Source: Bradyrhizobium sp. 1 | GTDB lineage: Bacteria > Pseudomonadota > Alphaproteobacteria > Rhizobiales > Xanthobacteraceae | Length of the DNA stretch: 64,000 nt | Reading direction: 5' to 3' | Assembly: GCF_023073315.1 (NCBI RefSeq) | Contig: NZ_JADPJH010000034.1 | Coordinates: 410,263 to 474,262, forward strand | Shown: piece by piece, positions 15,474 through 32,035 of the stretch | Position numbering within the stretch: position 1 is the stretch's first letter | Layout: each line of letters opens with the position of its first letter | Notes under the pieces: model-generated | Told to the model about the DNA's origin: nothing | The model's database searches: none | The model's input: the letters and a program-made list of their open reading frames with translations, nothing else | Translations under genes and position numbers: made by a program

Positions 15474-15995
15474 TCAAAACTCGTTCGCTATTTTCGACAA
15501 CATCCCGAGCAGGGCTTCGCGGTTGGCCTGCCCCAACAGCTCGTTCAGCCGGGCCTCGTGCTTGGTGGCGACGAGCTTTTTCGCCCGCGCCAGTACGGCC
15601 TTGCCCTTGTCGGTCAGCACCAGGATGTGCGAGCGGCGGTCGTTGGTGGAGCGGATGCGCGCGCAGAGGTCGCGGCTCTCGAGATTGTCGAGAAGGGCCA
15701 CGAAATTCGGGCGCAGGATGCCGAGGGTGGAGGCGATTTCGGTCTGGTTACGGCCCGGATTCTTCTCGACCAGCAGCAGCACCGAGAACTGCGCCGGCGT
15801 GAGCTGGAGCGAGGCCATGCAACGCAAGAAATTCTCGAACACCTTGAGCTGCGCCCGCTTCAGCACATAGCCGAGCTGTTCGGACAATTCGCCGAGCTGG
15901 AGGGCCTCCGGCTGCCCATCGGTCGCATCCTTGCGGCCCTTGGCCGCGTCGCCGGGTTTTTCAGAAGACTTTTCAGCGGTTTTGGAAACGGTCAT
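15474..15995 (-). CDS. couR: MarR-family repressor (CouR-like)
   Basis: 173-residue MarR winged-helix regulator with a charged N-terminal extension of about 30 residues. The wHTH lies at about 65-135 (NQTEIASTLGILRPNFVALLDNL) and is followed by the DRRSHILVLTDKG wing. It is divergent from an ABC importer and in the same locus as hydroxycinnamate genes. In R. palustris the MarR protein CouR represses couAB and is released by p-coumaroyl-CoA; position and family match, so the name is offered by context. The shared motif (A/G)TTAT-N5-ATAA(C/T) at three promoters in this island is its likely target. Confidence 0.75.
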   Translation of the reverse strand: MTVSKTAEKSSEKPGDAAKGRKDATDGQPEALQLGELSEQLGYVLKRAQLKVFENFLRCMASLQLTPAQFSVLLLVEKNPGRNQTEIASTLGILRPNFVALLDNLESRDLCARIRSTNDRRSHILVLTDKGKAVLARAKKLVATKHEARLNELLGQANREALLGMLSKIANEF

Positions 15996-16050: not shown

Positions 16051-16071
16051 GTTATGATTTATAATTGTTAT
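16051..16071. promoter_or_regulatory. Candidate CouR operator overlapping a -10 box
   Basis: GTTAT-GATTT-ATAAT at 16051-16065, with a further GTTAT half-site ending at 16071. The motif contains a consensus TATAAT (16060-16065) reading toward the ABC permease. It lies between the divergent MarR and permease genes; related motifs are at 23432-23446 and 28002-28016. Confidence 0.6.
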
Positions 16072-16172
16072 GGACCATATCAAATATCGTCAGCGGATTT
16101 CAATGGCTGTGAGCGGACCATCCACCGCAATTGCGGAGACCGGTTCGCAATCTTGAGGGGGAGCGTCCGGTC

Positions 16173-17213
16173 TTGAATACCACCATCATGCTGTTCCTGG
16201 TGCAGGACGGCATCACCAATGGCGCGATTTACGCGCTGCTCGGCCTGGCGCTGGTGCTGGTGTTCGCCGTCACCCGCGTGATCCTGATCCCCCAGGGCGA
16301 ATTCGTCACCTACGGCGCGCTGACCTATGCTTCGCTGGCCTCGGGCCAGCTGCCGGGCACGGCGAAACTCGCGCTGGCGCTCGGCATCGGCGCCTTCGCC
16401 TTCGACCTGTTCGTGGCCCGCAAGGCGCTGCATGGCCGGCTGATCCTGCGCAGCTTCCTCACCAATGTCGTGCTGCCGGCGATCGTGCTGGCGCTGACCT
16501 TTTACTTTGCCGCACAGAAGCCGCCGGTCGCGGTCTGCATCGCGCTGTCGCTGGTGATCGTGGCGATGATCGGCCTGTATCTCTACCGCGTCGCGTTCCA
16601 GCCGCTGGCGCACACCTCAGTGCTGGTGCTGCTCATCGCATCGGTGGGCGTCCACCTCGCGCTGCAGGGGCTGGGACTGCTGTTCTTCGGGGCCGAAGGC
16701 CAGCGCGGACCTGCCGTGCTGTCCGGCTCCTTCACCGCCGGCGCACTGCGCTTTACCGGCCAGAGCCTCACAGTCTACGGCATCACCATCGCCTTCATCG
16801 TCGGGCTCTGGCTCTTCTTCGGCCTGACGCTCTACGGCAAGGCACTGCGCGCGACCGCCGTGAACCGGCTCGGCGCGCGGCTTGCCGGCATCCGCACTAC
16901 ACTCTCCGGCCAGATCGCCTTCCTGCTGGCGTCCGTGATCGGCGCGCTGTCGGGCATCATGATCGTGCCGATCACGACGCTCTACTACGATTCAGGCTTC
17001 CTGATCGGCCTGAAGGGCTTTGTCGCCGCGATCATCGGCGGCCTCGTCAGCTACCCCCTCACCGCCGTCGCGGCGCTGTTCGTCGGCATCGTCGAGGCGT
17101 TCTCGTCCTTCTACGCCTCCAACTACAAGGAAGTGATCGTCTTCATGCTGCTGATCCCCGTGCTGCTGCTGCGCTCGCTCGCCGCGCCCGCGGTCGAGGA
17201 AGAGAAGGACTGA
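16173..17213 (+). CDS. HAAT ABC transporter permease, LivH-type (CouPSTU-like system)
   Basis: 346-residue inner-membrane permease. The start is taken as TTG at 16173, about 9 bp after GAGGGGGA; ATG at 16188 is the alternative. The LivH hallmark ALRATAVNRLGARLAGI occurs near residue 225, and hydrophobic helices fill the rest. It is the first gene of a three-gene transporter operon with no adjacent binding protein; the best candidate partner is the orphan-like binding protein at 32036. In R. palustris a comparable CouPSTU importer takes up p-coumarate and related phenylpropenoids, and this operon lies in the same kind of locus. Confidence 0.85.
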   Translation: MNTTIMLFLVQDGITNGAIYALLGLALVLVFAVTRVILIPQGEFVTYGALTYASLASGQLPGTAKLALALGIGAFAFDLFVARKALHGRLILRSFLTNVVLPAIVLALTFYFAAQKPPVAVCIALSLVIVAMIGLYLYRVAFQPLAHTSVLVLLIASVGVHLALQGLGLLFFGAEGQRGPAVLSGSFTAGALRFTGQSLTVYGITIAFIVGLWLFFGLTLYGKALRATAVNRLGARLAGIRTTLSGQIAFLLASVIGALSGIMIVPITTLYYDSGFLIGLKGFVAAIIGGLVSYPLTAVAALFVGIVEAFSSFYASNYKEVIVFMLLIPVLLLRSLAAPAVEEEKD

Positions 17214-17220
17214 CGCCAAG

Positions 17221-18990
17221 ATGCAGAGCCGGCTTCCCATCCTCATCTTCGCTCTCGTCATGGCGGCGATCCCGTTCGTCCCGGGCATGCCGCCGTTCTG
17301 GATCGTGCTGCTCGACAATATCGGCCTGACCGCGCTGGTCGCGATGGGCCTCGTGCTGCTGACCGGCGTCGGCGGTCTGACCTCGTTCGGCCAGGCAGCC
17401 TTCGTCGGCTTCGGCGCCTACACCACTGCGGTGCTGTCGACGGCCTATGGCCTGTCGCCGTGGCTGACCTTGCCGCTGTCGCTCCTGGTCAGCGGATTGC
17501 TGGCGGTGCTGCTCGGCCTCGTCACCGTCCGCCTCTCCGGCCATTATCTGCCGCTCGGCACGCTCGCCTGGGGGCTCGGCCTGTTTTATCTCTTCAGCAA
17601 GCTGGAATTCTTAGGGAGAAACGACGGCATCTCGGCGATCCCGCCGCTCTCGATCGGGTCATTCAAGATGCTCTCGCCCGGCTCGATCTATTACGCGATC
17701 TGGGTCGCGGTGATCGTCTCGGCGCTGCTGACGATGAATCTTTTGGACTCCCGCACCGGCCGCGCCATCCGTGCGCTGCGCCGCGGGCATGTCGCGGCCG
17801 AAGCGTTCGGCGTACACACGCCGCGCGCCAAAATGCTAGTGTTCATTCATGCCGCGGTGCTCGCCGGCCTGTCCGGCTGGCTCTATGCGCATCTTCAGCG
17901 CGCGGTGAACCCGACGCCGTTCGGCGCGCAGGCGGGCATCGAGTATCTCTTCATCGCGGTGGTCGGCGGCGCCGGCTATGTCTGGGGCGGCGTGCTTGGC
18001 GCGGCGATCGTCGTGGTGCTGAAGGAAGTGCTGCAGAGTTATCTGCCGCTGATCCTGCCCGGCTCCGGCCAGGTCGAGACCATCGTGTTCGGCATCATGC
18101 TGGTGGCGCTGCTGCAACTCGCGCCCGGCGGCGTCTGGCCCTGGCTGATGTCGTTCCTGCCCGAGGCTACCCGTGGCAAGAAGCCGGACACCTCGCTGAA
18201 ACTGGAGCAGCGCCCCCGCGCGCCCGGCCAGGACAGCGTACTGCTCCACGTCGAAAAAGCGCGCAAGCAATTTGGCGGCGTGATCGCGGTCAACAACGTT
18301 TCCTTCGACGTCCAGGCCCGCGAGATCGTCGCATTGATCGGGCCGAACGGCGCCGGCAAGAGCACCACGTTCAACCTGATCACCGGCGTGCTGTCGGCGA
18401 CGTCAGGCTCGATCTCCGTGCTCGGCAAGAAGGTCGACAACGCACCGCCGCAGGAGATCGTCAAGCTCGGCATCAGCAGGACCTTCCAGCATGTGAAGCT
18501 GGTGCCTGATATGACCGTACTGGAGAATGTCGCGATCGGCGCCCATCTGCGCGGCCATTCCGGCCCGATCTCCTCGATGCTGCGGCTCGACCGCGCTGAC
18601 GAGGCAAAGCTGCTCGCGGAAGCCGCCCGCCAGATCGAGCGCGTCGGCCTTGCCGAGCAGATGCATCAGCTCGCAGGCTCGCTCTCGCTCGGTCAGCAGC
18701 GCATCGTCGAGATTGCCCGGGCGCTCTGCGTCGATCCGATGCTGCTGCTGCTCGACGAACCGGCCGCGGGCCTGCGCCACATGGAGAAGCAGCGGCTCGC
18801 GACGCTGCTGCGCGAGCTGCGCGACGGCGGCATGAGCGTGCTGCTGGTCGAGCACGACATGGGCTTTGTCATGAACCTCGCCGACCGCATCGTGGTGCTG
18901 GATTTCGGCACCAAGATCGCGGAGGGCACGCCCGCCACGATCAAGACCAATCCCGAAGTGATCAAGGCCTATCTCGGAGTGGCGGCATGA
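17221..18990 (+). CDS. Fused HAAT permease-ATPase (LivM-LivG fusion)
   Basis: 589-residue fusion. Residues 1-315 are a LivM-type permease (AIRALRRGHVAAEAFGVHT at about 182-200). A 25-residue Pro/Arg-rich linker follows, then a LivG-type ATPase from about 340 with Walker A GPNGAGKS at 374-381 and Walker B LLLLDEPAAGL near 510, ending VIKAYLGVA. The linker and reading frame are continuous, so this is a natural fusion and not an assembly join. It starts 7 bp after the LivH stop and overlaps the LivF start by 4 bp. Such fusions occur in aromatic-acid ABC importers of this group. Confidence 0.88.
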   Translation: MQSRLPILIFALVMAAIPFVPGMPPFWIVLLDNIGLTALVAMGLVLLTGVGGLTSFGQAAFVGFGAYTTAVLSTAYGLSPWLTLPLSLLVSGLLAVLLGLVTVRLSGHYLPLGTLAWGLGLFYLFSKLEFLGRNDGISAIPPLSIGSFKMLSPGSIYYAIWVAVIVSALLTMNLLDSRTGRAIRALRRGHVAAEAFGVHTPRAKMLVFIHAAVLAGLSGWLYAHLQRAVNPTPFGAQAGIEYLFIAVVGGAGYVWGGVLGAAIVVVLKEVLQSYLPLILPGSGQVETIVFGIMLVALLQLAPGGVWPWLMSFLPEATRGKKPDTSLKLEQRPRAPGQDSVLLHVEKARKQFGGVIAVNNVSFDVQAREIVALIGPNGAGKSTTFNLITGVLSATSGSISVLGKKVDNAPPQEIVKLGISRTFQHVKLVPDMTVLENVAIGAHLRGHSGPISSMLRLDRADEAKLLAEAARQIERVGLAEQMHQLAGSLSLGQQRIVEIARALCVDPMLLLLDEPAAGLRHMEKQRLATLLRELRDGGMSVLLVEHDMGFVMNLADRIVVLDFGTKIAEGTPATIKTNPEVIKAYLGVAA

Positions 18991-19718
18991 GTGCGCTGTT
19001 GTCCGTCACCGATGCGCACGTCGCCTATGGCAAGGTCGAGGCGGTACGTTCGGTCTCGCTCGAGGTCGGCCAAAACCAGATCGTCACCATCGTCGGCGCC
19101 AACGGCGCCGGCAAGACCACGCTGCTCTCCGCGATCATGGGAATTTTTCCGCTGAAGGGCCGCGTCGCTTTTGCCGGGCAGGATCTCGCCCGGCTCGACA
19201 TCGAGGACCGCGTCGCGATGGGGCTCGGCCTCGTCCCCGAACACCGCGAATTGTTCGTGACCATGAATGTCGAGGACAATCTCGAGCTGGGCGCGTTCCG
19301 CATCGAGAGAGCCAAAGCAAAGGCGTCGATGGAGCGGATCTATACGCTGTTCCCGCGGCTGAAGGAGCGCCGCAAGCAGCTCGCCGGGACGCTGTCCGGT
19401 GGCGAGCAACAGATGCTCGCGATGGGCCGCGCGCTGATGGGCGAGCCGAAACTCCTGATGCTGGACGAGCCGAGCCTCGGTCTGGCTCCAATCATCGTCG
19501 CCGACATTTTCCGGATCGTCACTGAGCTGCGCGCCGGCGGCGTCTCGGTGCTGCTGGTCGAGCAGAACGCGCAGGCCGCACTGAAGATCGCCGACCAGGC
19601 CTATGTGATGGAGCTCGGTGAGTTCGTGCTCAGCGGCAAGGCCAGCGATATCGCGGCGAATGAGCGGGTTGCGGCGAGCTATCTCGGCTTCCAGCACGAA
19701 GGCGCGAGTGTGTTGTAG
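18987..19718 (+). CDS. HAAT ABC transporter ATPase, LivF-type
   Basis: 243-residue ATPase. GANGAGKTTLLSAIMG Walker A is near residue 37, LSGGEQQMLAMGRAL signature near 138, LLMLDEPSLGLAP Walker B, and a C-terminus ASYLGF. Coupled to the permease-ATPase fusion by an ATGA overlap. With the fusion it supplies the two nucleotide-binding domains. It is followed by a short perfect hairpin at 19722-19748. Confidence 0.9.
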   Translation: MSALLSVTDAHVAYGKVEAVRSVSLEVGQNQIVTIVGANGAGKTTLLSAIMGIFPLKGRVAFAGQDLARLDIEDRVAMGLGLVPEHRELFVTMNVEDNLELGAFRIERAKAKASMERIYTLFPRLKERRKQLAGTLSGGEQQMLAMGRALMGEPKLLMLDEPSLGLAPIIVADIFRIVTELRAGGVSVLLVEQNAQAALKIADQAYVMELGEFVLSGKASDIAANERVAASYLGFQHEGASVL

Positions 19719-19721
19719 CTT

Positions 19722-19748
19722 TTACCCTCCCCTGGAGGGGGAGGGTAA
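19722..19748. repeat. Hairpin between convergent genes
   Basis: Perfect 10-bp arms TTACCCTCCC / GGGAGGGTAA with a 7-bp spacer, between the LivF gene and the converging PPOX-fold gene. No T-run; it is either a REP-like element or a weak bidirectional terminator. Confidence 0.65.
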
Positions 19749-19760
19749 GCGAGCGCCGCG

Positions 19761-20393
19761 TTACGACGCTCCCTCCGCCTTCTCACCCTTCAGCGCCGCA
19801 ACCTCCGCCTCCAGCTCCGCGATTCTTGCGTCCCTTGCCGCCAGCGCTTGCGCCACATCCGCCGCATCGAACTTCTGCGGAATGTGCTGCGGGCAGTTGG
19901 TGTCCCAGGCCGCGATCTTGAACAGGATCACCTGCTCCGGCCGGGCGCGGTAGCCTTTCGGCATCAGCGACGTCGTCAGCGCCTCGTCGTCCTCGACCAC
20001 ACGCGCCTCGCCCCAGAGCTTCACCCGCCGGCGATGGGCGTAGTCCATGATGAAGATGTACGCGTTGGGATTCTCCGTCAGATTGCCCTGCGTGATAAAC
20101 TGCTGGTTGCCCGCGTAATCGGCAAAAGCGAGCGTCTGCTTGTCCAGCACCTTGAGAAACCCCTTGGGCCCGCCGCGGTGCTGGATGTAGGGCTGACCAT
20201 CCGCCGAGGCGGAGGCGAAATAGAAGCTGTTGGCTTCAGCGAGGAAGCCGGCCAGCTTCTCGTCAACCTCGGTGCGCCAGCCGTGCTGCTCAGCGCGGGC
20301 ATAGGCTTCGCGTGAACCCTTGCGGGTCTGAATCTCTTTCACCGCCGGCGTGAAGGCTACGTCGCTGGCATAGGTGTGGACTGATGTCGTCAT
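19761..20393 (-). CDS. Pyridoxamine 5'-phosphate oxidase-like FMN-binding protein
   Basis: 210-residue PPOX/split-barrel protein. The middle of the sequence (FYFASASADGQPYIQHRGGP, then FADYAGNQQFITQGNLTENP) is the flavin-binding core seen in this family. The C-terminus is an Ala/Glu-rich coiled coil (about residues 175-205). The ATG at 20393 follows AGGAGATATTCCG; the longer frame is rejected. It is divergent from a LysR regulator, which probably controls it. Substrate unknown; related proteins reduce xenobiotics or bind flavin or heme. Confidence 0.75.
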   Translation of the reverse strand: MTTSVHTYASDVAFTPAVKEIQTRKGSREAYARAEQHGWRTEVDEKLAGFLAEANSFYFASASADGQPYIQHRGGPKGFLKVLDKQTLAFADYAGNQQFITQGNLTENPNAYIFIMDYAHRRRVKLWGEARVVEDDEALTTSLMPKGYRARPEQVILFKIAAWDTNCPQHIPQKFDAADVAQALAARDARIAELEAEVAALKGEKAEGAS

Positions 20394-20490
20394 CGGAATA
20401 TCTCCTGAATCCCGGCGCATCTCTGCGTCTTTCGGTAGCTAAGATGGACCTTCCGGCGGCTAAAACAATCTGCCCGCTTGACACTTCATC

Positions 20491-20507
20491 ATTGCAATAT
20501 ATGCAAT
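20491..20507. promoter_or_regulatory. Palindrome between LysR gene and PPOX gene
   Basis: ATTGCA-ATATA-TGCAAT, a perfect inverted repeat fitting the T-N11-A rule for LysR-type operators. It ends 6 bp before the LysR ATG. A TTGACA sits just upstream at 20478-20483 without a convincing -10 at standard spacing. The location suggests autorepression and control of the divergent flavoprotein. Confidence 0.65.
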
Positions 20508-20513
20508 AATGCC

Positions 20514-21398
20514 ATGGACCGTCTTGAAGCCATGCGTGTCTTCATCACCGTCGCCGATCTGCGCGGCTTTGCGCCGGCAGCGCGCAAGCTGCGGCTGTCG
20601 CCCTCGGCGGTGACGCGGCTGATCGCGGCACTGGAAGAGCATCTCGGTGCCCGGCTGCTGCAACGAACCACCCGGCAGGTGAGGCTGACGGATGTCGGCA
20701 CGCGCTATCTCGAGCGCGCCCGGCGCATCCTCGCTGACGTCGAGGAAGCCGATGGCTCCGCGCGGGAGGAGCGCAACCGGCCGAGCGGGCGTCTGGTGGT
20801 ATCGGCGCCGGTCGGCTTCGGCCGGCTGCATGTCGGGCCGGTCATGACCGCCTATCTCAAACGCTATCCCGAGGTGGCCTGCGAGCTCAGGCTCTCGGAC
20901 AATCTGGTGAATTTGGTGGAAGACGCCGTCGACGCCGCAGTCCGCATCGGCCATCTCGCCGATTCCTCGCTCGTCGCCCGCCAGGTCGGCGAGATGCGGC
21001 GGATCACGGTGGCGACATCAGGCTATTTGAAGCGTCACGGCGAACCGAAGACGCCCGAGGAATTGCTTGCGCATCAGACGATCCTGTTCGGCCCCGCAAT
21101 CAATTGGCGTTTCCTGCGCGACGGCCGCGAGATCGAGGTGACGCCGAGCCCGCGCTTCACCAGCAACAGCGCTGATGCCGCCTTGCAATATGCCGAGGCC
21201 GGCGGCGGCGTGACGCGCGTGCTGGCCTATCAGGCCGCCGAGGGCTTGAGGCGCGGGCGGCTGAAAATCGTGCTGGCGAAATACGAGCATCCGGCGCTGC
21301 CGATCCACATCGTCTACCCGACCTCGCGCCTGCTCTCGGCCAAGGTGCGCGCCTTCATCGATCTCGTGGTGGAGACGGCGGAGTGGAAGTTTGGGTGA
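20514..21398 (+). CDS. LysR-family transcriptional regulator
   Basis: 294-residue regulator with an N-terminal HTH (FAPAARKLRLSPSAVTRLIAALEEHLGARLLQRTTRQVRLT) and a periplasmic-binding-like effector domain from about 90. The ATG at 20514 (MDRLEAMRVF) is the canonical LysR start; the longer frame reads through the operator. It is divergent from the PPOX-fold gene. LTTRs of this type often respond to small metabolites or oxidants; the inducer is not deducible. Confidence 0.88.
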   Translation: MDRLEAMRVFITVADLRGFAPAARKLRLSPSAVTRLIAALEEHLGARLLQRTTRQVRLTDVGTRYLERARRILADVEEADGSAREERNRPSGRLVVSAPVGFGRLHVGPVMTAYLKRYPEVACELRLSDNLVNLVEDAVDAAVRIGHLADSSLVARQVGEMRRITVATSGYLKRHGEPKTPEELLAHQTILFGPAINWRFLRDGREIEVTPSPRFTSNSADAALQYAEAGGGVTRVLAYQAAEGLRRGRLKIVLAKYEHPALPIHIVYPTSRLLSAKVRAFIDLVVETAEWKFG

Positions 21399-21404
21399 GG
21401 TCTC

Positions 21405-21534
21405 GTGTCCCGGACGCGCTGCAACGTGAAACGTTGCTGCGCAGAGCCGGGACCCAGAAGGTTAGAGCGCGGCTACGGATGGATGGGCCCCGGCTCTGCA
21501 GCGCATCACTATGTGCTGCGCTGCGTCCGGGGCA
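21405..21534. repeat. Long imperfect palindrome (GTGTCCCGGACGC type)
   Basis: About 130 bp with terminal GTGTCCCGGACGC and GCGTCCGGGGC arms and inner complementary words (GCGCTGCAACG / CTGCAGCGC, AGAGCCGGG / CCCCGGCTCT). It fills the gap between the LysR gene and the convergent thioesterase. Typical of a dispersed extragenic repeat in this bacterial group. Confidence 0.65.
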
Positions 21535-21542
21535 AGAAAGCA

Positions 21543-21962
21543 TCACCCCTTCTTCGGCACCACGCGAAACGTGCCGCTGGCGCGCGCGATTACGACATCG
21601 GCGGCCTTAGCGAGGCACTGCGCGAAGCAGATCGTCTTGCCGGTCTTGATCACGTCACTCTCGATCGCCAGCCACTGGCCGATTTCGGCTGAGCCGACGA
21701 AATCGATCGACAGCGAGATCGTCACGAACGATGTCGTCCAGTTCGTCACCTGCGCACAGCTATAGCCCATGGCATTGTCGGCGAGCGCCGTGATGAGACC
21801 GCCGTGGATCAGGCCCCGCCCGTTGGTATGCGGTTTCGCCAGACGCAGGCCGAAGATCACGGCCTTGTCAGTCTTCCTGGAGTAGAGCGGCTCCCAGGGA
21901 TCGGTGAGAGGGCTCTTGCGAAAATGCGGCTCAAAGCCGGCGGGAATGTCGGTAGAGGTCAT
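21543..21962 (-). CDS. PaaI-type hotdog-fold thioesterase
   Basis: 139-residue hotdog protein. The NGRGLIHGGLITALADNAMGY segment (residues about 47-67) is the PaaI-type active-site helix and HGG motif; a beta-sheet half follows with TTSFVTISLSIDFVGSA. It probably hydrolyses aryl- or acyl-CoA. It lies in an aromatic-acid island between LysR and pobA, so a housekeeping role in recycling CoA from stalled aromatic thioesters is plausible. It is transcribed alone, with repeats on both sides. Confidence 0.8.
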   Translation of the reverse strand: MTSTDIPAGFEPHFRKSPLTDPWEPLYSRKTDKAVIFGLRLAKPHTNGRGLIHGGLITALADNAMGYSCAQVTNWTTSFVTISLSIDFVGSAEIGQWLAIESDVIKTGKTICFAQCLAKAADVVIARASGTFRVVPKKG

Positions 21963-22093
21963 GGCTGTCTCGCGTTGCTGGTTGCCGGCATTGAACGCGA
22001 TGTGGATGACAGTTTCACCGCCTACAAAGTTTTAAACGGAATTTGCGCGGGTGTTTGAAACGGGCGGTGCCGTCATTGCGAGGAGCGCATGAG

Positions 22094-22188
22094 GCCGTAG
22101 GGTGGGTTAGCGTAGCGTAACCCACCTCTTCGATTTCCGCGGAGACAGAAGTGGTGGGTTACGCCTTACGGCTAACCCACCCTACGGC
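22094..22188. repeat. Nested perfect inverted repeat (GGTGGGTTA type)
   Basis: Outer arms GCCGTAGGGTGGGTTAGC (22094-22111) and its perfect reverse complement (22171-22188). Inner arms GTAACCCACC (22117-22126) and GGTGGGTTAC (22153-22162), also perfect. The four words are versions of one GGTGGGTTA core in alternating orientation, so two alternative folds exist. It lies just past the pobA stop. Confidence 0.8.
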
Positions 22189-22194
22189 ACCGTC

Positions 22195-24631
<2,437 letters not shown>

Positions 24632-24718
24632 AACGTCGAAAGCAGCACGGCGGCGAGGGGCATCTCGCCGCCGTTGCTCCGCAAGCGGGTTGAACGGTGA
24701 GGAGCGCACGACGCCTCC

Positions 24719-24866
24719 TCCCCCTCTCCCCGCCTGCGGGGAGAGGGTTGGGGTGAGGGGGAGTCTCCGCGGGGGCGGTGACAGTTGGACTCGCGGAGAG
24801 TCCCCCTCACCCGGAATCCGCGCTTGCGCGCGAATTCCGGCCTCTCCCCGCAAGCGGGGAGAGGCG
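24719..24866. repeat. Repeat pair inside the TRAP operon
   Basis: Two copies of a CCTCTCCCCGC...GCGGGGAGAGG hairpin (24723-24746 and 24841-24864) enclose a further inverted pair, TCTCCGCG / CGCGGAGA, with GTGAGGGGGA / TCCCCCTCAC. It fills the 287-bp gap between the binding-protein and small-permease genes, a usual place for a stabilising hairpin that raises binding-protein mRNA over permease mRNA. Confidence 0.75.
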
Positions 24867-24918
24867 AAGTGCGCAGCGGGGATCAGGATCGATCAATGAC
24901 ATCAGGCAGGAAACTCCC

Positions 24919-25428
24919 ATGAAGCGCTCCTGGATGGACCGCGTCATCGATTCGATCGAATGGATCGCGGCCGGCTTTGTCGGCATCGTCGCGCTCGACA
25001 TTTTCCTGTCGGTGCTGCTGCGCAACACGCTGAACTATGCGATCCCCGACTCGTTCGACATCGGCCGCATGCTGCTCGGCATCCTGATTTTCTGGGGCAT
25101 CGCGGCGACCTCCTATCGCGGCACCCACATCACGGTCGACCTGGTCTGGGGCAATGTCGGACCGCGCTATCAGCGCTGGATCGACGTGTTCGCAACCCTG
25201 GTGCTGCTGTTCGTCGTCACCGTGCAGACCTGGACGCTGTTCGACAAGGTACGCGGCACCTACAACGACAACGTCCAGACCTTCGACATGCACATGCCGA
25301 CCTGGCCGTTCTTCGCGATCGCCTGGATCGGCGACGCCGCGGCCGTGCTGCTGATCGCGATCCGCACCTACCGGCTGATCTTCCATCCCGAAGAGATGCA
25401 CGACCCCAAGCTGAAAGCGACGGAATAA
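24919..25428 (+). CDS. tarQ: TRAP transporter small permease (TarQ-like)
   Basis: 169-residue DctQ-type subunit with four predicted membrane helices (about 12-34, 49-67, 90-108, 130-150) and a short charged C-terminal tail. The ATG at 24919 (MKRSWMDRV) follows CAGGAAACTCCC. It is 2 bp from the large permease. It bridges the binding protein and the DctM channel. Its separation from the binding protein by a hairpin-rich repeat is noted above. Confidence 0.87.
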   Translation: MKRSWMDRVIDSIEWIAAGFVGIVALDIFLSVLLRNTLNYAIPDSFDIGRMLLGILIFWGIAATSYRGTHITVDLVWGNVGPRYQRWIDVFATLVLLFVVTVQTWTLFDKVRGTYNDNVQTFDMHMPTWPFFAIAWIGDAAAVLLIAIRTYRLIFHPEEMHDPKLKATE

Positions 25429-25430
25429 TC

Positions 25431-26750
25431 ATGAGCACCGATGCCGTCGCCGTACTCGGCTTCGTTTCCCTGTTCGCGCTGATGCTGCTGCGCGTGCCCG
25501 TTGGCATGGCCATGGGCCTCGTCGGAGTATCAGGCTTCTCCTATCTGGTCGGCGCCACACCGGCTCTGAAATTGGTTGGCCAGACCTCGATGCGCACGGT
25601 CACCGACTACACGTTTGGCGTCATCCCGATGTTTTTGCTGATGGGCTCCTTCGTCAGCAATTCCGGCATGAGCCGCGAGTTGTTCCGCGCGGCCAACGGC
25701 TTTGTCGGACACTTACGCGGCGGGCTCGGCATCGCCACCGTCGGCGCCTGCGGCGGCTTTGCCGCGATCTGCGGCTCGTCGGTCGCGACCGCTGCGACCT
25801 TCTCCGCCGTCGCCTACCCCGAGATGCGCCGCTTCGGCTATCCGCAATCCTTTGCCACCGGCGTGATCGCGGCGGGCGGCACGCTGGGCGCGATGCTGCC
25901 GCCCTCCACCGTGCTCGCGGTCTACGGCATCATCACCGAGCAGGACATCGGAAAACTCTTCATCGCCGGCATCATCCCGGGCTTGCTGGCGATGACGATG
26001 TACATGATCACGATTTTCCTGATCGGCTACTTCCGGCCCGACTTCCTGCCCAAGGGCAAAGTGCTGCCGTGGCGCGAGCGCTTTGCCGGACTGAAGGAGA
26101 TCTGGGCGCCGGTGCTGCTGTTCGTGTTCGTCATCGGCGGCCTCTACGGCCTGCCCTATTTGCCGCGCTTCACGCCGACGGAAGCCGGCGGCGTCGGCGC
26201 TGCCGGCGCCTTCATCATCGGCGTGGTCACGGGCCGGCTCGACCGCGAGAAGATTTTGGCCTCGCTGCTCCAGGCGACGCGCACCGCGGCCGCCGTGTTC
26301 ACCGTGCTGATCGGCGCCTTGATCTTCGGCTATTTCCTCACGGTGACGCAGACGCCGCAGAAGGTGACGGAATTCCTCACCGGCCTCGGCCTCGGCCCGT
26401 ACGGCGTGCTGGCACTGATCATGGTGATGTATCTCGTGCTCGGCTGCCTGATGGACGCCATGGCGATGATCATCCTCACCGTGCCGATCATCTTCCCCGT
26501 CATCACGCATCTTGGTTTTGACCCGATCTGGTTCGGCGTCATCATCGTGATGACCGTCGAGCTCGGCCTGATCCATCCGCCTGTCGGCATGAACGTCTTT
26601 GTCATCAAAAGCGTGGTGAAGGATGTGTCCTTCTCCACGATCTTCAAAGGCGTGATCCCGTTCGTCGCGACCGATCTCGTGCGGCTAGTGATTTTGATCG
26701 CCTTCCCGCTGCTTGCGACATGGTTGCCAACGCGGATGATGGCGCATTGA
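25431..26750 (+). CDS. tarM: TRAP transporter large permease (TarM-like)
   Basis: 439-residue DctM-type permease with about 12 hydrophobic segments. The family motifs CGGFAAICGSSVATAATFS (about residues 104-122) and GGTLGAMLPPSTVLAVYG (about 147-164) are present, as is the IHPPVGMNVFV motif near 380. It is the transport subunit coupled to an ion gradient. It ends 11 bp before a DUF3237 gene, which is therefore probably cotranscribed. The protein frame continues far upstream with no function; ATG 25431 is the correct start. Confidence 0.9.
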   Translation: MSTDAVAVLGFVSLFALMLLRVPVGMAMGLVGVSGFSYLVGATPALKLVGQTSMRTVTDYTFGVIPMFLLMGSFVSNSGMSRELFRAANGFVGHLRGGLGIATVGACGGFAAICGSSVATAATFSAVAYPEMRRFGYPQSFATGVIAAGGTLGAMLPPSTVLAVYGIITEQDIGKLFIAGIIPGLLAMTMYMITIFLIGYFRPDFLPKGKVLPWRERFAGLKEIWAPVLLFVFVIGGLYGLPYLPRFTPTEAGGVGAAGAFIIGVVTGRLDREKILASLLQATRTAAAVFTVLIGALIFGYFLTVTQTPQKVTEFLTGLGLGPYGVLALIMVMYLVLGCLMDAMAMIILTVPIIFPVITHLGFDPIWFGVIIVMTVELGLIHPPVGMNVFVIKSVVKDVSFSTIFKGVIPFVATDLVRLVILIAFPLLATWLPTRMMAH

Positions 26751-26761
26751 GAGGCGACGCG

Positions 26762-27223
26762 ATGACCACACCGACGCTCGAAACCAAATACGTCTTCACC
26801 ATCATCGCTGAGATCGGCGACGTCGTCACCGCGGGCGAGACCGGCATCGGCGTTCGCCGCATCATTCCGATCCTCGGAGGTGAGGTGACGGGCGCGATAT
26901 CAGGAAAAGTGCTGCCGTTCGGCGCCGACTTCCAGACCATCCGGCCCAACGAGCTGATCGATCTCGAAGCCAAATACGCCTTCGAGACCGACGACGGCGC
27001 CATCGTCTATGTCGAGAACAAGGGCATGCGCTTCGGCCCGGTCGAGCTGCTGCAAAAGCTCAAGCGCGGCGAGCCGGTCGATCCGAAGCTGATCTATTTC
27101 CGCACCGTGCCGAAATTCGAGACCGGGCACGAGAGGTACCGCTGGCTGATGGAGCACATCTTTGTCGGCTCCGCCGCGCGGCATGCGGATCGCGTGGTGA
27201 TCGACGTGCATCAGGTGGTGTGA
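26762..27223 (+). CDS. DUF3237 family protein
   Basis: 153-residue cytosolic beta-barrel-type protein of the DUF3237 (UPF0311) family; the RRIIPILGGEVTGAISGKVLPFGADFQ segment is diagnostic. The family has no settled biochemical role. It begins 11 bp after the TRAP large permease, with GAGAGGCGACG ahead of the ATG, so it is in the TRAP operon. Association with aromatic catabolism genes suggests a role on an aromatic intermediate, but no catalytic residues can be named. Confidence 0.8.
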   Translation: MTTPTLETKYVFTIIAEIGDVVTAGETGIGVRRIIPILGGEVTGAISGKVLPFGADFQTIRPNELIDLEAKYAFETDDGAIVYVENKGMRFGPVELLQKLKRGEPVDPKLIYFRTVPKFETGHERYRWLMEHIFVGSAARHADRVVIDVHQVV

Positions 27224-27257
27224 ACGCCACGCCCCCCGCCATGGATCCGCTAGTCCG

Positions 27258-27290
27258 TTGACATTGCGGTCAATGTAGCGTATACGCTAC
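27258..27290 (+). promoter_or_regulatory. Promoter and operator of the toxin-antitoxin operon
   Basis: Consensus -35 TTGACA (27258-27263), a 17-bp spacer and -10 TATACG (27281-27286). The -10 lies in the centre of a perfect 16-bp palindrome GTAGCGTATACGCTAC (27275-27290). The toxin ATG is at 27293, 7 bp after the -10, so transcription should start at or next to the A of ATG, giving a leaderless message. The antitoxin HTH protein is the probable repressor. Confidence 0.8.
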
Positions 27291-27292
27291 AG

Positions 27293-27589
27293 ATGCCGAC
27301 AATCAAGAGAACGGACGAATTCTCTAACTGGCTCAGAAATCTGCGAGACCGGAGAGCAAAGGCGAAAATCCTTGCCCGGATCGATCGTCTGGCGCTCGGC
27401 AATCCCGGAGACGTTGCTCCGGTCGGAGGCGGCATCAGCGAAATGAGAGTTCATGAGGGCGCCGGATACCGGATCTACTACGTTCCGCGGGGCGAAGAGA
27501 TCGTCGTTCTTCTTTGTGGTGGTGACAAGGGCTCTCAGCAAAGGGACATCGCGTTGGCGAAGCAGATCGCGAGTGAGTTGGAGGACTGA
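27293..27589 (+). CDS. RelE/ParE-superfamily toxin (HigB-like, PF05973 type)
   Basis: 98-residue basic protein of the addiction-module killer family, expected to act as a ribosome-dependent mRNA interferase. Typical segments are WLRNLRDRRAKAKILARIDRL and the YRIYYVPRGEEIVVLLCGGDKGSQ core. The toxin comes first and the antitoxin second, the HigBA order, with only 3 bp between. Base composition is visibly lower in GC than the flanks, which fits acquisition by transfer. There is no ribosome-binding site; the ATG follows the -10 by a few bases. Confidence 0.85.
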   Translation: MPTIKRTDEFSNWLRNLRDRRAKAKILARIDRLALGNPGDVAPVGGGISEMRVHEGAGYRIYYVPRGEEIVVLLCGGDKGSQQRDIALAKQIASELED

Positions 27590-27592
27590 ACG

Positions 27593-27892
27593 ATGACAAA
27601 AGCAAAATCATTTGACGCTGCGGAATACCTCGACAGCCCCGAAATGATTGCGGCCTATCTCACCGAAGCCTTCGAATCCGACGATCCGTCCGCAATAACG
27701 ATGGCCATCGGCGCGGTGGCCCGGGCTCAGGGCATGGGCGCCATTGCCGAAAAGGCCGGCCTATCCCGTGAGAACTTGTACCGGTCGCTTGGCGGCGAGG
27801 CCAAACCCGAATTCGGCACCGTGATAAAAGTTCTCCATGCCATGGGCATCAATCTCGTGGCGCAACCCCAAGGCGGAACGAAGGCTGCGTAG
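27593..27892 (+). CDS. Addiction-module antidote protein (XRE-type HTH)
   Basis: 99-residue antitoxin of the HigA-like 'putative addiction module antidote' family. The N-terminal AAEYLDSPEMIAAYLTEAFE segment is the toxin-binding part, and the helix-turn-helix GMGAIAEKAGLSRENLYRSLGGEAKPEF is in the second half. Predicted to neutralise the toxin and repress the operon through the palindrome at 27275-27290. The pair sits between the TRAP/DUF3237 operon and the crotonase operon. Confidence 0.87.
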   Translation: MTKAKSFDAAEYLDSPEMIAAYLTEAFESDDPSAITMAIGAVARAQGMGAIAEKAGLSRENLYRSLGGEAKPEFGTVIKVLHAMGINLVAQPQGGTKAA

Positions 27893-28001
27893 CGGCCCGA
27901 AGGCATCGGCGTCCGACGTTCGAGCGTCCGCTTGCATCCGGTCTGTCGTCTTTTCTGCATCGGCTTTCCCGTGGTCAGCCTTCTTGACTCCCCCGGAATT
28001 C

Positions 28002-28016
28002 GTTATACAACATAAC
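28002..28016. promoter_or_regulatory. Candidate CouR operator upstream of couA
   Basis: Perfect inverted repeat GTTAT-ACAAC-ATAAC, 19 bp before the crotonase start. It is the best version of the motif shared with 16051-16065 and 23432-23446. A TTGACT lies upstream at 27984-27989, so the motif covers the -10 region. R. palustris CouR is known to repress couAB; this is the natural equivalent site. Confidence 0.65.
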
Positions 28017-28035: not shown

Positions 28036-28845
28036 ATGACACAGGGAAACGCCGAGACCGCTGACGCGGGTGCCTCCGGGCTGCTCCGGATCGAGCGGGC
28101 GGACCGGGTTCTGACCGTGGGTCTGAACCGGCCGGCCAAGCGCAATGCGCTCAATGACGGCATCATCCTGGAAATCGGCGAATGTTTTGCGTCCCTGCCG
28201 GAGGATATCGGCGCGGTCGTCATCCACGGCATCGGCGATCATTTCTCCAGCGGTCTCGATCTGTCCGAGCTCCAGGACCACGACGCCACCGGCGGGCTGC
28301 TGCATTCGCAGATGTGGCACCGGGTGTTCGACCGCATCCAGTACAGCCGCGTGCCTGTCATCGCTGCGCTCAGGGGCGCCGTGATCGGCGGCGGGCTCGA
28401 GCTTGCCTGCGCGGCGCATATCCGCGTCGCCGAGCCCTCGACCTACTTTGCGTTGCCGGAGGGGCAGCGCGGCATCTTCGTCGGCGGTGGCGGCTCGGTG
28501 CGGCTGCCGCGGCTGATCGGCGTTGCCAGGATGATGGACATGATGCTGACCGGCCGCGTCTATACCGCGACCGAAGGCGCCTCCTACGGCTTTGCGCAAT
28601 ATCTGACCGAAGCCAACAACGGGCTCGGCAAGGCGCTGGAGCTCGCCACCAAGGTCGCCTCCAACGCACCGCTGACGAATTTCGCCGTGATCCAGGCGCT
28701 GCCGATGATCGCGGAGGCCAATCCGCAGACCGGCCTGCTCATGGAATCGCTGATGGCGACGGTGGCGCAAAGCGACAAAGAGGCAAAACGCCGGATCCGC
28801 GAATTCCTCGAGCACAAGACCGCCAAGGTAAAGCCGAAATCATGA
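28036..28845 (+). CDS. couA: Crotonase: hydroxycinnamoyl-CoA hydratase (CouA/Ech-like)
   Basis: 269-residue crotonase-fold enzyme. GGGLE at 118-122 and LPEGQRG at 140-146 supply the two glutamates (E122, E142) and the oxyanion loop; IGDHFSSGLDLSEL is present. It is predicted to hydrate p-coumaroyl/feruloyl-CoA and, if it behaves like CouA/Ech, to cleave the product into hydroxybenzaldehyde and acetyl-CoA. The stop overlaps the feruloyl-CoA synthase start (ATGA), so the two are coupled. The C-terminal region is Lys/Arg-rich. Whether it performs the retro-aldol step or only hydration is open, because a dehydrogenase and a thioesterase follow in the operon. Confidence 0.82.
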   Translation: MTQGNAETADAGASGLLRIERADRVLTVGLNRPAKRNALNDGIILEIGECFASLPEDIGAVVIHGIGDHFSSGLDLSELQDHDATGGLLHSQMWHRVFDRIQYSRVPVIAALRGAVIGGGLELACAAHIRVAEPSTYFALPEGQRGIFVGGGGSVRLPRLIGVARMMDMMLTGRVYTATEGASYGFAQYLTEANNGLGKALELATKVASNAPLTNFAVIQALPMIAEANPQTGLLMESLMATVAQSDKEAKRRIREFLEHKTAKVKPKS

Positions 28846-30725
28846 GCGTGCAGCCGTCCTCTTCCAGCATGGAGCGCGGCGCGAGCACTTCCCCGCTGCG
28901 GCCCATTTCGTTCGGCGATCCCGTCGTCGACATCGATCGTCGCGACGACGGCACGATTTACCTCAGGCCCAAACAGCCGCTCGGCGACTATCCCGTCCGC
29001 ATCACCGACCGCCTGCATCATTGGGCGGCGACGACGCCGGACCGAATCTTCATGGCCGAGCGCGAAGGCGGGCGCGGCTGGCGCAAGATAACCTATGCCG
29101 AATTGCTCACCGCGAGCCGGCACATTGCATCTAGCCTGATCCAGCGCGGCCTCTCGGCGGAGCGGCCGGTCGTGATCCTCTCCGGCAACTCGATCGACCA
29201 TGCGCTGCTGGCCTTCGGCGCGTTCTATGCCGGCGTTCCGTTCTGCCCGGTGTCGCCGGCCTATTCGCTGGTGTCGAAGGATTACGGCAAGCTCTCGTAC
29301 CTGATGAAGCTGCTGACGCCCGGCCTCGTCTTCGCCGAGGACGCCGACAAGTTTTCCGATGCGCTCGCTACCAATGTCTCGCTCGGCACCGAGATCGCCG
29401 CGTCCTATGGCAGCGTGCCGGGCCGCGACGTCACGCTGCTCGCCGACCTCATGGCGACGCCGGTCCGCGGCGATCTCGACGCAATGCACGGCAAGATCGG
29501 CCCCGACACAATCGCGAAATTCCTGCTGACGTCGGGTTCGACCGGCAATCCCAAGGCCGTCATCAACACCCAGCGCATGATCTGCGCCAATCAGGTCATG
29601 CTGCGCGAGACGCTCACCTTCCTCAAGGACGAGCCGCCTGTCATCATCGACTGGCTGCCGTGGAACCACACTTTTGGCGGCAACCACAATATCGGGCTGA
29701 CGCTCTACAATGGCGGCTCGATGTATCTGGACGCCGGCAAGCCGGTACCCGGCGGCATCGAGGAGACCGTGCGCAATCTCCAGGAGATTTCGCCGACGGT
29801 CTATTTCAACGTGCCCAAGGGCTATGAATCGCTGCTGCCCTATCTGCGCGACGACCAGGGCCTGCGTGCAAAGTTCTTCGACAAGCTGCACGCGATGTTC
29901 TTCTCGGGCGCGGCGCTGTCGCCGTTCGTCTGGAACAGCCTCGACGAGCTCGCGGTGAAGGAAAAAGGCTACCGCGTGCCGATGCTGACCGGGCTTGGCG
30001 CCACCGAGACCTCGCCGTTCTTCATGTCGGTCAATCCACGCACCAGCCGCTCCGGCCATGTCGGGCTTCCCGTGTCCGGCAACGACGCCAAGCTCGTGCC
30101 GAACAACGGCAAGATGGAGGTGCGCGCCAAGGGCCCGAACGTGATGCCCGGCTACTGGCGCCAGGGCGACATCACCGCAAAATCCTTCGACGAGGAAGGG
30201 TTTTACAAGATGGGCGATGCGCTCAAGCCTGCGGATCCCGACGATCTCAACGCCGGCTTCGATTTCGACGGCCGCATCGGTGAGGATTTCAAGCTCGGCA
30301 GCGGCACCTGGGTCAGCGTCGGTCCGCTGCGCGCACGCTTCGTTGCCGCCTGCGCGCCGCTGGTGCGCGACGTCGTCATCGCGGGCATCAACCGCGACGA
30401 GGTCTCTGCGCTCGTGCTGCTCGATCTCGACGGCTGCCGGCTGATCAACCCGACGCTGCCCGCCGACAACCTCACCGTCACCGCCCGCGACCGGCTGGTC
30501 CGCGAAGCTTTTCGCGAGCGCCTGACGCGTTTCCTTGACTCCGCCACCGGCTCCTCGACGCGGATCACGCGTGCGATCCTGCTGGATACACCGCTGTCGA
30601 TCGACAAGGGCGAGGTCACCGACAAGGGCTCGATCAACCAGCGCGCGGTGCTCGAGCATCGCGGTGAGCTGATCGAGGAGCTCTACGCTGCCAATCCATC
30701 GGACCGTGTGATATCGGTCGCTTAA
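28842..30725 (+). CDS. couB: Feruloyl-/p-coumaroyl-CoA synthase (CouB/Fcs-like)
   Basis: 627-residue AMP-forming ligase, at the long end typical of feruloyl-CoA synthases, which carry an N-terminal extension (here about 45 residues). The AMP motif TSGSTGNPKA is at residues 230-239, with DWLPWNHTFGGNHN about 35 residues later and the LTGLGATETSP motif near 385. The C-terminal domain has the DKGEVTDKGSINQRAVLEHR end. The ATG at 28842 overlaps the crotonase stop; the longer frame from 28182 lies over couA and is a shadow. It activates hydroxycinnamates with ATP and CoA, starting side-chain degradation. Confidence 0.88.
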   Translation: MSVQPSSSSMERGASTSPLRPISFGDPVVDIDRRDDGTIYLRPKQPLGDYPVRITDRLHHWAATTPDRIFMAEREGGRGWRKITYAELLTASRHIASSLIQRGLSAERPVVILSGNSIDHALLAFGAFYAGVPFCPVSPAYSLVSKDYGKLSYLMKLLTPGLVFAEDADKFSDALATNVSLGTEIAASYGSVPGRDVTLLADLMATPVRGDLDAMHGKIGPDTIAKFLLTSGSTGNPKAVINTQRMICANQVMLRETLTFLKDEPPVIIDWLPWNHTFGGNHNIGLTLYNGGSMYLDAGKPVPGGIEETVRNLQEISPTVYFNVPKGYESLLPYLRDDQGLRAKFFDKLHAMFFSGAALSPFVWNSLDELAVKEKGYRVPMLTGLGATETSPFFMSVNPRTSRSGHVGLPVSGNDAKLVPNNGKMEVRAKGPNVMPGYWRQGDITAKSFDEEGFYKMGDALKPADPDDLNAGFDFDGRIGEDFKLGSGTWVSVGPLRARFVAACAPLVRDVVIAGINRDEVSALVLLDLDGCRLINPTLPADNLTVTARDRLVREAFRERLTRFLDSATGSSTRITRAILLDTPLSIDKGEVTDKGSINQRAVLEHRGELIEELYAANPSDRVISVA

Positions 30726-30750: not shown

Positions 30751-31512
30751 ATGTTGTTGAAGGACCAGGCAGCCATCGTCACCGGCGGTGCATCGGGACT
30801 GGGCGCGGCGACCGCGCGAAAACTGGCGGCACAGGGCGCCAAGGTCGCGGTGTTCGATCTCAATACCAAGCTTGCAGAAACCGTCGCCGCCGAGATCAAG
30901 GGCGTGGCCGTGACCTGCGACGTCTCCGACGCCGCCTCGGCCGAAGCTGCGATCGCGCAGGCCACCAAGGCCCATGGCCCGGCCCGCGTGCTGGTCAGCT
31001 GCGCCGGCATCGGTGTCGCCAAGCGCGTCGTCGGCCGCGACGGCCCGATGGCGCTTGCCGATTTCGACAAGGTGATCAAGGTCAATTTGATCGGCACCTT
31101 CAACATGCTGCGCCTGGCCGCAACCGAGATGTCCAAGCTCGAACCGCAGGCGACCGGCGAGCGCGGCGTCATCATCAACACGGCCTCCGTTGCCGCCTAT
31201 GACGGCCAGATCGGCCAGTCCGCTTATTCGGCCTCCAAAGGCGGCATCGTCGGCATGACGCTGCCGATCGCGCGCGAGCTCGCACAATTCGGCGTCCGCG
31301 TGCTGACCATTGCGCCCGGCCTGTTCCTGACGCCGCTGCTCGCGAACCTGCCGCAGGAAGCCCAGGATTCGCTCGCTGCCGCGATCCCGTTCCCGCGCCG
31401 GCTCGGCCACGCGGATGAGTTCGCCGCGCTCGCGTTGCACATGGTTGAGAATTCCTACCTGAACGGCGAAGTGGTGCGCCTCGACGGCTCGCTGCGCATG
31501 GCGCCGAAATAA
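30751..31512 (+). CDS. Short-chain dehydrogenase (3-hydroxyacyl-CoA dehydrogenase type 2-like)
   Basis: 253-residue SDR with cofactor site TGGASGLG (11-18), the NAD-preferring acidic end of beta-strand 2 (VFDLN), an N-A-G equivalent SCAGIGVA, and the catalytic YSASK preceded by Ser in NTASVAAYDG. The sequence resembles HSD10-type 3-hydroxyacyl-CoA dehydrogenases. Start behind CCAGGAGAACGCC. It is 25 bp after couB and 9 bp before the thioesterase. It would oxidise the 3-hydroxy-arylpropionyl-CoA made by the crotonase, giving a beta-oxidative branch that avoids the aldehyde. Confidence 0.8.
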   Translation: MLLKDQAAIVTGGASGLGAATARKLAAQGAKVAVFDLNTKLAETVAAEIKGVAVTCDVSDAASAEAAIAQATKAHGPARVLVSCAGIGVAKRVVGRDGPMALADFDKVIKVNLIGTFNMLRLAATEMSKLEPQATGERGVIINTASVAAYDGQIGQSAYSASKGGIVGMTLPIARELAQFGVRVLTIAPGLFLTPLLANLPQEAQDSLAAAIPFPRRLGHADEFAALALHMVENSYLNGEVVRLDGSLRMAPK

Positions 31513-31521
31513 GAGAATCGC

Positions 31522-31941
31522 ATGTTCGTGAACCGGCGCGACGTCCAGATCCAGTGGGGCGACTGCGACCCCGCCAACATCGTCTACTATCCGCGTTATT
31601 TCGCGATGTTCGACGATTCGACGTCGACCCTGTTCGAGGTCGCCGGGTTCTCGAAGCAGGACCTGGTCAAAAAATTCGGCCTGGTGGGCATTCCCATGGT
31701 CGATACGCGGTCCAAGTTCTACATCCCCTCGACTTATGGCGACTGGATCACCATCGAAACCAGGATCGAGAGCATCAAGCGCTCGAGCTTCGAGGTGAAG
31801 CACAACGTCTACAAGGGCGAGGCGCTGGCGATCGAAGGGTTCGAGACGCGCGTCCTGGTCGGCCGCGATCCCGTTAACCCCGACAAGCTGAAATCGGCAC
31901 CGTTTCCGGCGGAAATGGTAGCCAAATTCACGGGGAGTTAA
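31522..31941 (+). CDS. 4-hydroxybenzoyl-CoA thioesterase-like hotdog enzyme
   Basis: 139-residue hotdog thioesterase of the 4HBT/YbgC class. The motif QWGDCDPANIVYYPRYF carries the catalytic Asp (D16) in the same context as the Pseudomonas 4-hydroxybenzoyl-CoA thioesterase. It is the fourth gene of the hydroxycinnamate operon, directly after the SDR. Hydrolysis of 4-hydroxybenzoyl-CoA would deliver 4-hydroxybenzoate to PobA encoded 8 kb upstream. The substrate is inferred from family and context; a general aryl-CoA thioesterase remains possible. Confidence 0.8.
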   Translation: MFVNRRDVQIQWGDCDPANIVYYPRYFAMFDDSTSTLFEVAGFSKQDLVKKFGLVGIPMVDTRSKFYIPSTYGDWITIETRIESIKRSSFEVKHNVYKGEALAIEGFETRVLVGRDPVNPDKLKSAPFPAEMVAKFTGS

Positions 31942-32035
31942 GTCCGGAGCTAAATCGCCGCATCGCCAAAAGAGGGGGCTGAATTACCCCCCGATTTCTG
32001 CTTTCAAAGAAAACACGTCAAGGGAGGAAGAATAG

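Follow-up and report, generated by a model that had tools for sequence, protein, structure and literature searches.

We analysed 64,000 nucleotides of the genome of Bradyrhizobium sp. 1 (contig NZ_JADPJH010000034.1, positions 410,263 to 474,262; hereafter the window). The window encodes a MarR-family repressor, CouR, together with couAB and the ATP-binding cassette (ABC) and tripartite ATP-independent periplasmic (TRAP) transporter genes of p-coumarate uptake and catabolism, as in Rhodopseudomonas palustris. Our subject is a 15-bp inverted repeat, (A/G)TTAT-N5-ATAA(C/T), that an earlier reading of the sequence by eye (the original prediction) placed at the MarR/ABC, pobA/TRAP and couA promoters, starting at 16051, 23432 and 28002. 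The letters and coordinates of all three sites are correct. The first site lies between couR and a divergent liv-type ABC operon, 55 bases from the couR start; the second lies between pobA and a divergent TRAP operon, 67 bases from the pobA start and 168 from that of tarP; and the third ends 19 bases upstream of the couA ATG. The features of the locus are as follows.

15474–15995, minus strand: couR, MarR-family repressor, 173 aa (Pfam MarR, 2.7e-12; PDB 6c28, 6c2s and 6c9t, "CouR")
16051–16065, unstranded: predicted CouR box 1, couR/liv divergent promoter region, GTTATGATTTATAAT, exact match
16067–16081, unstranded: putative weaker CouR box 2, couR/liv, GTTATGGACCATATC, one mismatch, 16 bp from box 1
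16131–19718, plus strand: liv-type ABC run (permease, permease-ATPase fusion, ATPase), CouSTU-like (Pfam BPD_transp_2; NCBIfam LivG-type domain)
22195–23364, minus strand: pobA, 4-hydroxybenzoate 3-monooxygenase (TIGR02360, 709 bits, above cut-off)
23432–23446, unstranded: predicted CouR box, pobA/tarP divergent promoter region, ATTATATCATATAAC, exact match
23615–26750, plus strand: tarP, tarQ and tarM, TRAP transporter (Pfam DctP, 1.4e-37 for tarP)
28002–28016, unstranded: predicted CouR box, couA promoter region, GTTATACAACATAAC, exact match
28036–28845, plus strand: couA, enoyl-CoA hydratase family (Pfam ECH_1, 6.4e-40; 73% identical to the syntenic R. palustris gene)
28848–30725, plus strand: couB, acyl-CoA synthetase of the p-coumaroyl/feruloyl-CoA ligase type (71% identical to the syntenic R. 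palustris gene)
30751–33187, plus strand: rest of the couAB run, namely a short-chain dehydrogenase, a thioesterase and a CouP-like periplasmic binding protein (Pfam adh_short, 4HBT_2 and Peripla_BP_6)

The ABC genes share 78–81% identity with those next to couR in R. palustris, and tarPQM are 60–78% identical to their syntenic R. palustris counterparts. The start of the first ABC gene is uncertain (16131 or 16173). CouB scores 742 bits against NCBIfam PRK12582, slightly under the cut-off of 777, and we infer that the genes at 30751–33187 share one transcript with couAB. Two small genes lie at 27293–27892, between a DUF3237 gene and couA, the second of which matches "probable addiction module antidote protein" (PF21716).

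Rarity and conservation of the exact sites

The pattern, written RTTAT-N5-ATAAY, has exactly three matches in the window. In 100 dinucleotide shuffles of the window the mean number of matches was 0.01 and the maximum one, such that none of the 100 reached three. At the rate of the reversed control pattern across the genus, with 8.0 Mb assumed per genome, the Poisson probability of at least three sites in 64 kb is ~1e-6. Across the whole genome (8.0 Mb, 39 contigs) the pattern yields only five exact sites, compared with one for the reversed pattern, and all five are upstream of genes of one pathway. All three sites of the original prediction are real, but the set is larger than it supposed: the additional two are at the promoters of couO and pcaH, which are not linked to the window.

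Conservation of the three window sites was assessed in 80 named loci (1.58 Mb in total) found via the TRAP binding protein, whose titles comprise 78 Bradyrhizobium, one Bradyrhizobiaceae and one "Frankia". The couA site was counted wherever couA was found (65 of 80), and the couR/liv site only where livH and the 400 bp before it are present (49 of 80), a rule that leaves L142 out of the count although its site is present. An exact site precedes couA in all 65 loci, with its end always 19 bases from the couA start. The site between couR and the ABC operon is exact in 48 of the 49 examinable loci, 54–57 bases from the couR start in all 48 measured, and the site between pobA and tarP is exact in 77 of 80. 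This last site is also kept in 23 of 23 full-length loci that have neither couR nor livH in the stretch, couR being absent from ~10 kb upstream; retention without a nearby couR is what would be expected of a site acted on in trans. The record titled "Frankia sp. RB7" (L093) carries the cluster, with a TarP 96% identical, and its title is probably wrong.

The three promoters account for 191 of the 192 exact matches in the 80 loci, and the reversed pattern has two matches; the motif is thus not equally frequent in unrelated promoters, which the original prediction had named as grounds for giving it up. The sole off-target match (L082:6944) was rejected as a site of this kind because it belongs to an ATTGCA-N5-TGCAAT element at a LysR gene. 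In the window, a LysR-type gene has such an element in its promoter (ATTGCA-ATATA-TGCAAT, 20491–20507). Of the first 40 named loci, 31 contain its right half, TATGCAATAA, the left half being one base different in many; the element is probably the LysR-type regulator's own site.

Further sets extend the conservation to couR, couO and pcaH loci elsewhere in the genus. The 30 couR loci are all from Bradyrhizobium, our own included (59 of 60 genomes gave a CouR match with E ≤ 0.001, only distant matches being obtained outside the genus), and all 30 have the couR site. Sets of 30 loci each for couO and pcaH, again with our own locus in each, have the site in 30 of 30 and 28 of 30 cases, respectively (the misses are L175 and L184), with no match to the reversed control in either set. 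Summed over 36 genomes of the genus, exact sites number 256 and reversed-control matches 86, the pattern being the more frequent in 35 genomes and equal in one. The resulting excess, 4.7 sites per genome, is close to the five sites described here. Four genus genomes with complete site lists (30 sites) each have five fitting sites plus two or three scattered ones; couR, couO and pcaH sites were assigned by gene position, and pobA/tarP and couA sites by letters and spacing.

Could such sites be chance look-alikes drawn from AT-rich promoter DNA? Matches with one mismatch give this idea some footing, as they are no more common than in the reversed control: the whole genome has 72 versus 80 for the 15-bp pattern, and 15 versus 17 for a tighter one, with the five exact sites counted in. 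The pattern is also hardly enriched outside the genus. Hence, only exact matches are informative genome-wide, and for these the pattern exceeds its control at every scale examined (own genome, 36 genomes and 80 loci). Conservation and controls refute a chance origin of the exact sites, which we regard as having a negligible probability; the original prediction had considered chance matches unlikely, and the shuffles, the reversed control and the conservation bear this out. One-mismatch sites were also tried as weaker members of the regulon and rejected, there being no excess over the reversed pattern. Two of them, C25:62421 and C28:404196, adjoin a TetR/P450 pair and a luciferase-like monooxygenase gene.

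A second possibility is that the 15-mers are the -10 regions of core promoters, kept for RNA polymerase rather than for a repressor. The original prediction placed each site over a -10-like sequence, and this was borne out in part: TATAAT-like letters do fall within the sites, but a sigma-70 scan found no promoter-like pair at pobA/tarP or couA. At couR the scan found two promoter-like pairs, on the minus strand, and at couA a conserved TTGACT lies 16 bp ahead of a TACAAC that is inside the site. TATAAT itself occurs within the pcaH and couO sites of many relatives, and conservation at couA and couR/liv is strong in the flanks as well. Since these flanks are nearly as conserved as the box, we do not use flank conservation there as proof; better conservation footprints are those at pcaH and couO. 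However, an inverted repeat of constant 15-bp length is not what a -10 element should preserve, and such an element should also occur beyond five promoters of a single pathway in an entire genome; we judge this explanation highly improbable.

CouR and the form of its predicted operator

By sequence comparison, the MarR gene at 15474–15995 is the orthologue of R. palustris CouR. Its product matches PDB 6c28 over its full length (173 aa) with a phmmer score of 229 bits, the next solved relative scoring 43 bits, and is ~70% identical to R. palustris CouR. The recognition helix of MarR-family proteins contacts DNA, and in this stretch 11 of 12 residues are the same in the two proteins (GILRPNFVALLD here, GILRPNFVAMLD in R. 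palustris). The helix has NFV in four proteins that have the box in their cluster and lacks it in three without the box, a contrast in sequence that is suggestive only. The orthology of the repressor and the conservation of the site at the same promoters support the proposal, made in the original prediction, that the local MarR protein recognizes a shared operator; binding by CouR is predicted on this comparative evidence.

The sites could instead be operators of a different regulator, such as a CouR paralogue or another regulator of aromatic pathways, with the adjacency of couR being accidental. MarR paralogues at ~40% identity are present in many genus genomes, and the nearest in our own genome (41% identical to CouR, on contig C17) adjoins an amidase gene and a gene for an AMP-binding enzyme of the coenzyme A (CoA)-ligase type. 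However, the divergent gap beside this paralogue (L338:2520–2550) has a different palindrome of its own, GATTGTTGT/ACAACAATTG, and no exact RTTAT-N5-ATAAY, and its recognition helix differs from that of CouR. Moreover, the box is at couR itself in every one of the 30 genus loci, and the presence of couO follows that of CouR (see below). We consider it unlikely, to a degree that leaves little room for it, that a regulator other than CouR owns these sites.

All five sites of our own genome fit RTTATR-N3-YATAAY. With the five promoters weighted equally, a purine (A or G) occupies arm position 6 in 90% of sites (0.75 + 0.15), and there is a weaker preference for AAT/ATT flanking the 15-mer. Only exact sites were entered, which fixes arm positions 1–5 and makes arm conservation high by construction. 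The arms tend to a 6-3-6 layout rather than a plain 5-5-5; in most relatives the right arm of the couR site is GATAAT, one position off this layout, such that the sixth-position extension is a preference. Spacer letters are mostly specific to each promoter and kept across species, with a mean of 0.93–0.98 at the three window promoters and a lower value, 0.77, at pcaH.

Box 2 of the couR/liv region, GTTATGGACCATATC, has the same letters in 38 of 48 loci of relatives. R. palustris has a tandem pair there in the same register, also 16 bp apart, with one mismatch in each box. From these sequences, the couR/liv pair looks like a tandem operator. Separately, the pobA/tarP region contains a second palindrome, AACATGTTAA, at 23552–23561, ~60 bp before tarP, which is present in 74 of the 80 loci.

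Unlinked sites and genomes beyond the genus

The two sites outside the window are as follows.

L001, contig C17: site at the pcaH promoter, GTTATATTCTATAAT, 55 bases upstream of the pcaH start
L005, contig C28: site at the promoter of an amidohydrolase (CouO-type) gene, ATTATATGATATAAC, 29 bases upstream of the gene, which is on the minus strand

PcaH was identified by TIGR02422 (381 bits), and pcaHG encodes protocatechuate ring cleavage. The CouO-type protein belongs to the amidohydrolase superfamily (Pfam Amidohydro_2, 1.9e-59), and the sole solved relative found for it is the uncharacterised PDB 3irs (77 bits). In genomes from three further families of the order (G054, G047 and G052), homologues of the CouO-type protein are encoded no more than 8 kb away from couA, couB and a couR-like gene. 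To compare its distribution with that of CouR, we used family genomes hand-picked by CouR score: 15 with a match at E ≤ 2.8e-61 and 15 with no match better than 6e-14. CouO at ≥84% identity is present in 15 of 15 CouR-bearing genomes and in none of the 15 that lack CouR, in which only relatives at ≤31% were found.

Boxes are present beyond Bradyrhizobium. Genome G257, whose CouR is 99% identical to the crystallised R. palustris protein, has exact boxes at pobA/tarP (GTTATAACCTATAAC, L274:2693) and couA (GTTATGGTCTATAAC, L274:6684). R. palustris has exact boxes at pobA/tarP, couA and couO, together with the degenerate pair at couR/liv. Of the 15 CouR-bearing genomes, all from other genera of the family, 10 have the couO box; in G257, G228 and G183 an exact box starts 66–69 bases before the matched part of the gene. 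Upstream of couR, a single exact box is present at 17 of 30 loci of the family. In G054, with a CouR homologue at 41–43% identity, a box lies between divergent couR and couA.

Several observations weigh against CouR as the owner of these sites. Within the genus, three of the 80 pobA/tarP gaps have no exact box, two of them having a box with one mismatch. At R. palustris couR/liv, both boxes have a mismatch and neither is exact. The 13 family couR loci without an exact box upstream are all among the 15 closest to R. palustris CouR. No exact couO box was found within 300 bp in five of the 15 CouR-bearing genomes of other genera, and no pcaH box within 300 bp in any of the eight such genomes with a true pcaH (75–82% identity). 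Two distant genomes with couR-like genes at 31–36% identity have no box in 14 kb, and 24 genomes of other families show no clear enrichment (282 versus 215; higher in 14, lower in 6).

The difference between the two unlinked targets suggests different ages. With the box present in 10 of 15 genomes at couO and in 0 of 8 at pcaH, couO looks like an old CouR target, and pcaHG like a lineage-specific capture in Bradyrhizobium; pcaH as an ancestral target, which we also considered, is not supported. The pcaH box is likewise missing from six CouR-lacking genomes with a pcaH relative (51–78%).

A predicted CouR switch for p-coumarate catabolism

Weighing this evidence, we conclude that the three 15-mers are very probably operators of CouR, which would act there as a repressor until released by p-coumaroyl-CoA. 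A CouR dimer would sit on RTTATR-N3-YATAAY at or beside each core promoter, blocking its own gene and the ABC uptake operon, pobA with the TRAP operon, and couAB. Leaky CouB would turn imported p-coumarate into p-coumaroyl-CoA, which would free CouR and thereby turn the operons on together. The two further exact sites would put the unlinked couO and pcaHG under the same switch. The predicted order of the pathway is ABC/TRAP uptake, CouB, CouA, dehydrogenase, CouO, PobA and PcaHG, with a putative CouR box ahead of each named operon; the dehydrogenase step is taken to be that of the short-chain dehydrogenase of the couAB run.

This regulon is known in kind. In published accounts, CouR of R. palustris acts as the repressor of couAB and governs it together with the ABC and TRAP genes as one regulon (PMC3610893); it binds a palindrome and is released by p-coumaroyl-CoA, not by p-coumarate (PMC3610893, PMC9594313, PMC4737184, PMC10458429). 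The core, CouR over couAB, ABC and TRAP genes, is therefore not new; to these targets our prediction adds pobA, couO and pcaHG. The R. palustris regulon (couAB, couPSTU and tarPQM) shares with ours the orthologous repressor, transporters and enzymes and the box layout at pobA/tarP and couA. In contrast, the Bradyrhizobium genome has exact boxes at couR/liv and pcaH, its couR-ABC genes come before pobA/TRAP rather than after the couAB run, and a short-chain dehydrogenase gene follows couB; the corresponding R. palustris stretch (L274:9428–9672) has no match to that gene (30751–31512) at 1e-10. Centring a 31-bp stretch on the couA box of R. palustris gives 10 G+C (32%), which agrees in length and G+C with the R. 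palustris CouR site in PMC9594313; several shifted frames have equal G+C, so the agreement is weak.

More distant systems resemble ours in logic. CouR of Rhodococcus jostii RHA1 is a MarR repressor of p-hydroxycinnamate genes that is released by p-coumaroyl-CoA; its operator is likewise an inverted repeat with a 5-bp spacer, but the letters differ (cATTGA-N5-TCAATg), and its pathway includes the amidohydrolase CouO (PMC4737184). Its identity to R. palustris CouR is given as about 25% (PMC4737184) or 36% (PMC9594313). FerC of Sphingobium SYK-6 and HcaR of Agrobacterium fabrum are MarR repressors of hydroxycinnamate genes that answer CoA thioesters (PMC10458429); they belong to other lineages, and the likeness noted here is in the type of regulator. 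In the open-licence literature, outside which most subscription journals lie, we recognised no account of a CouR regulon in Bradyrhizobium, nor any of CouR acting at the pcaH or couO promoter.

What is new is the prediction of couO and pcaHG as CouR targets, and the apparent tandem box at couR. A motif spotted by eye becomes a regulon of five defined promoters, open to testing with as many short DNA fragments, and it names two unlinked targets of which the gene neighbourhoods in this genome give no hint. The two unlinked sites suggest that CouR control reaches further down the pathway than the accessible published accounts describe. In R. jostii, CouO makes the last deacetylation step of p-hydroxycinnamates (PMC4737184); the protein described here is like it at the level of the amidohydrolase superfamily, and is a candidate for the CouO that cleaves the side chain of p-coumarate in both Bradyrhizobium and R. 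palustris. The gain of pcaHG looks like a clean case of a regulon acquiring a target in one lineage. Taken a step further, on a reading that we favour with some reserve, Bradyrhizobium CouR would be a switch for the whole pathway (uptake, couAB, couO, pobA and pcaHG), pcaHG would have been captured by gain of a box, and ring cleavage would be timed by a CoA thioester of the upper pathway and not by a later intermediate alone; the couO box of R. palustris would point to a side-chain cleavage that depends on CoA, alongside the published non-beta-oxidation scheme.

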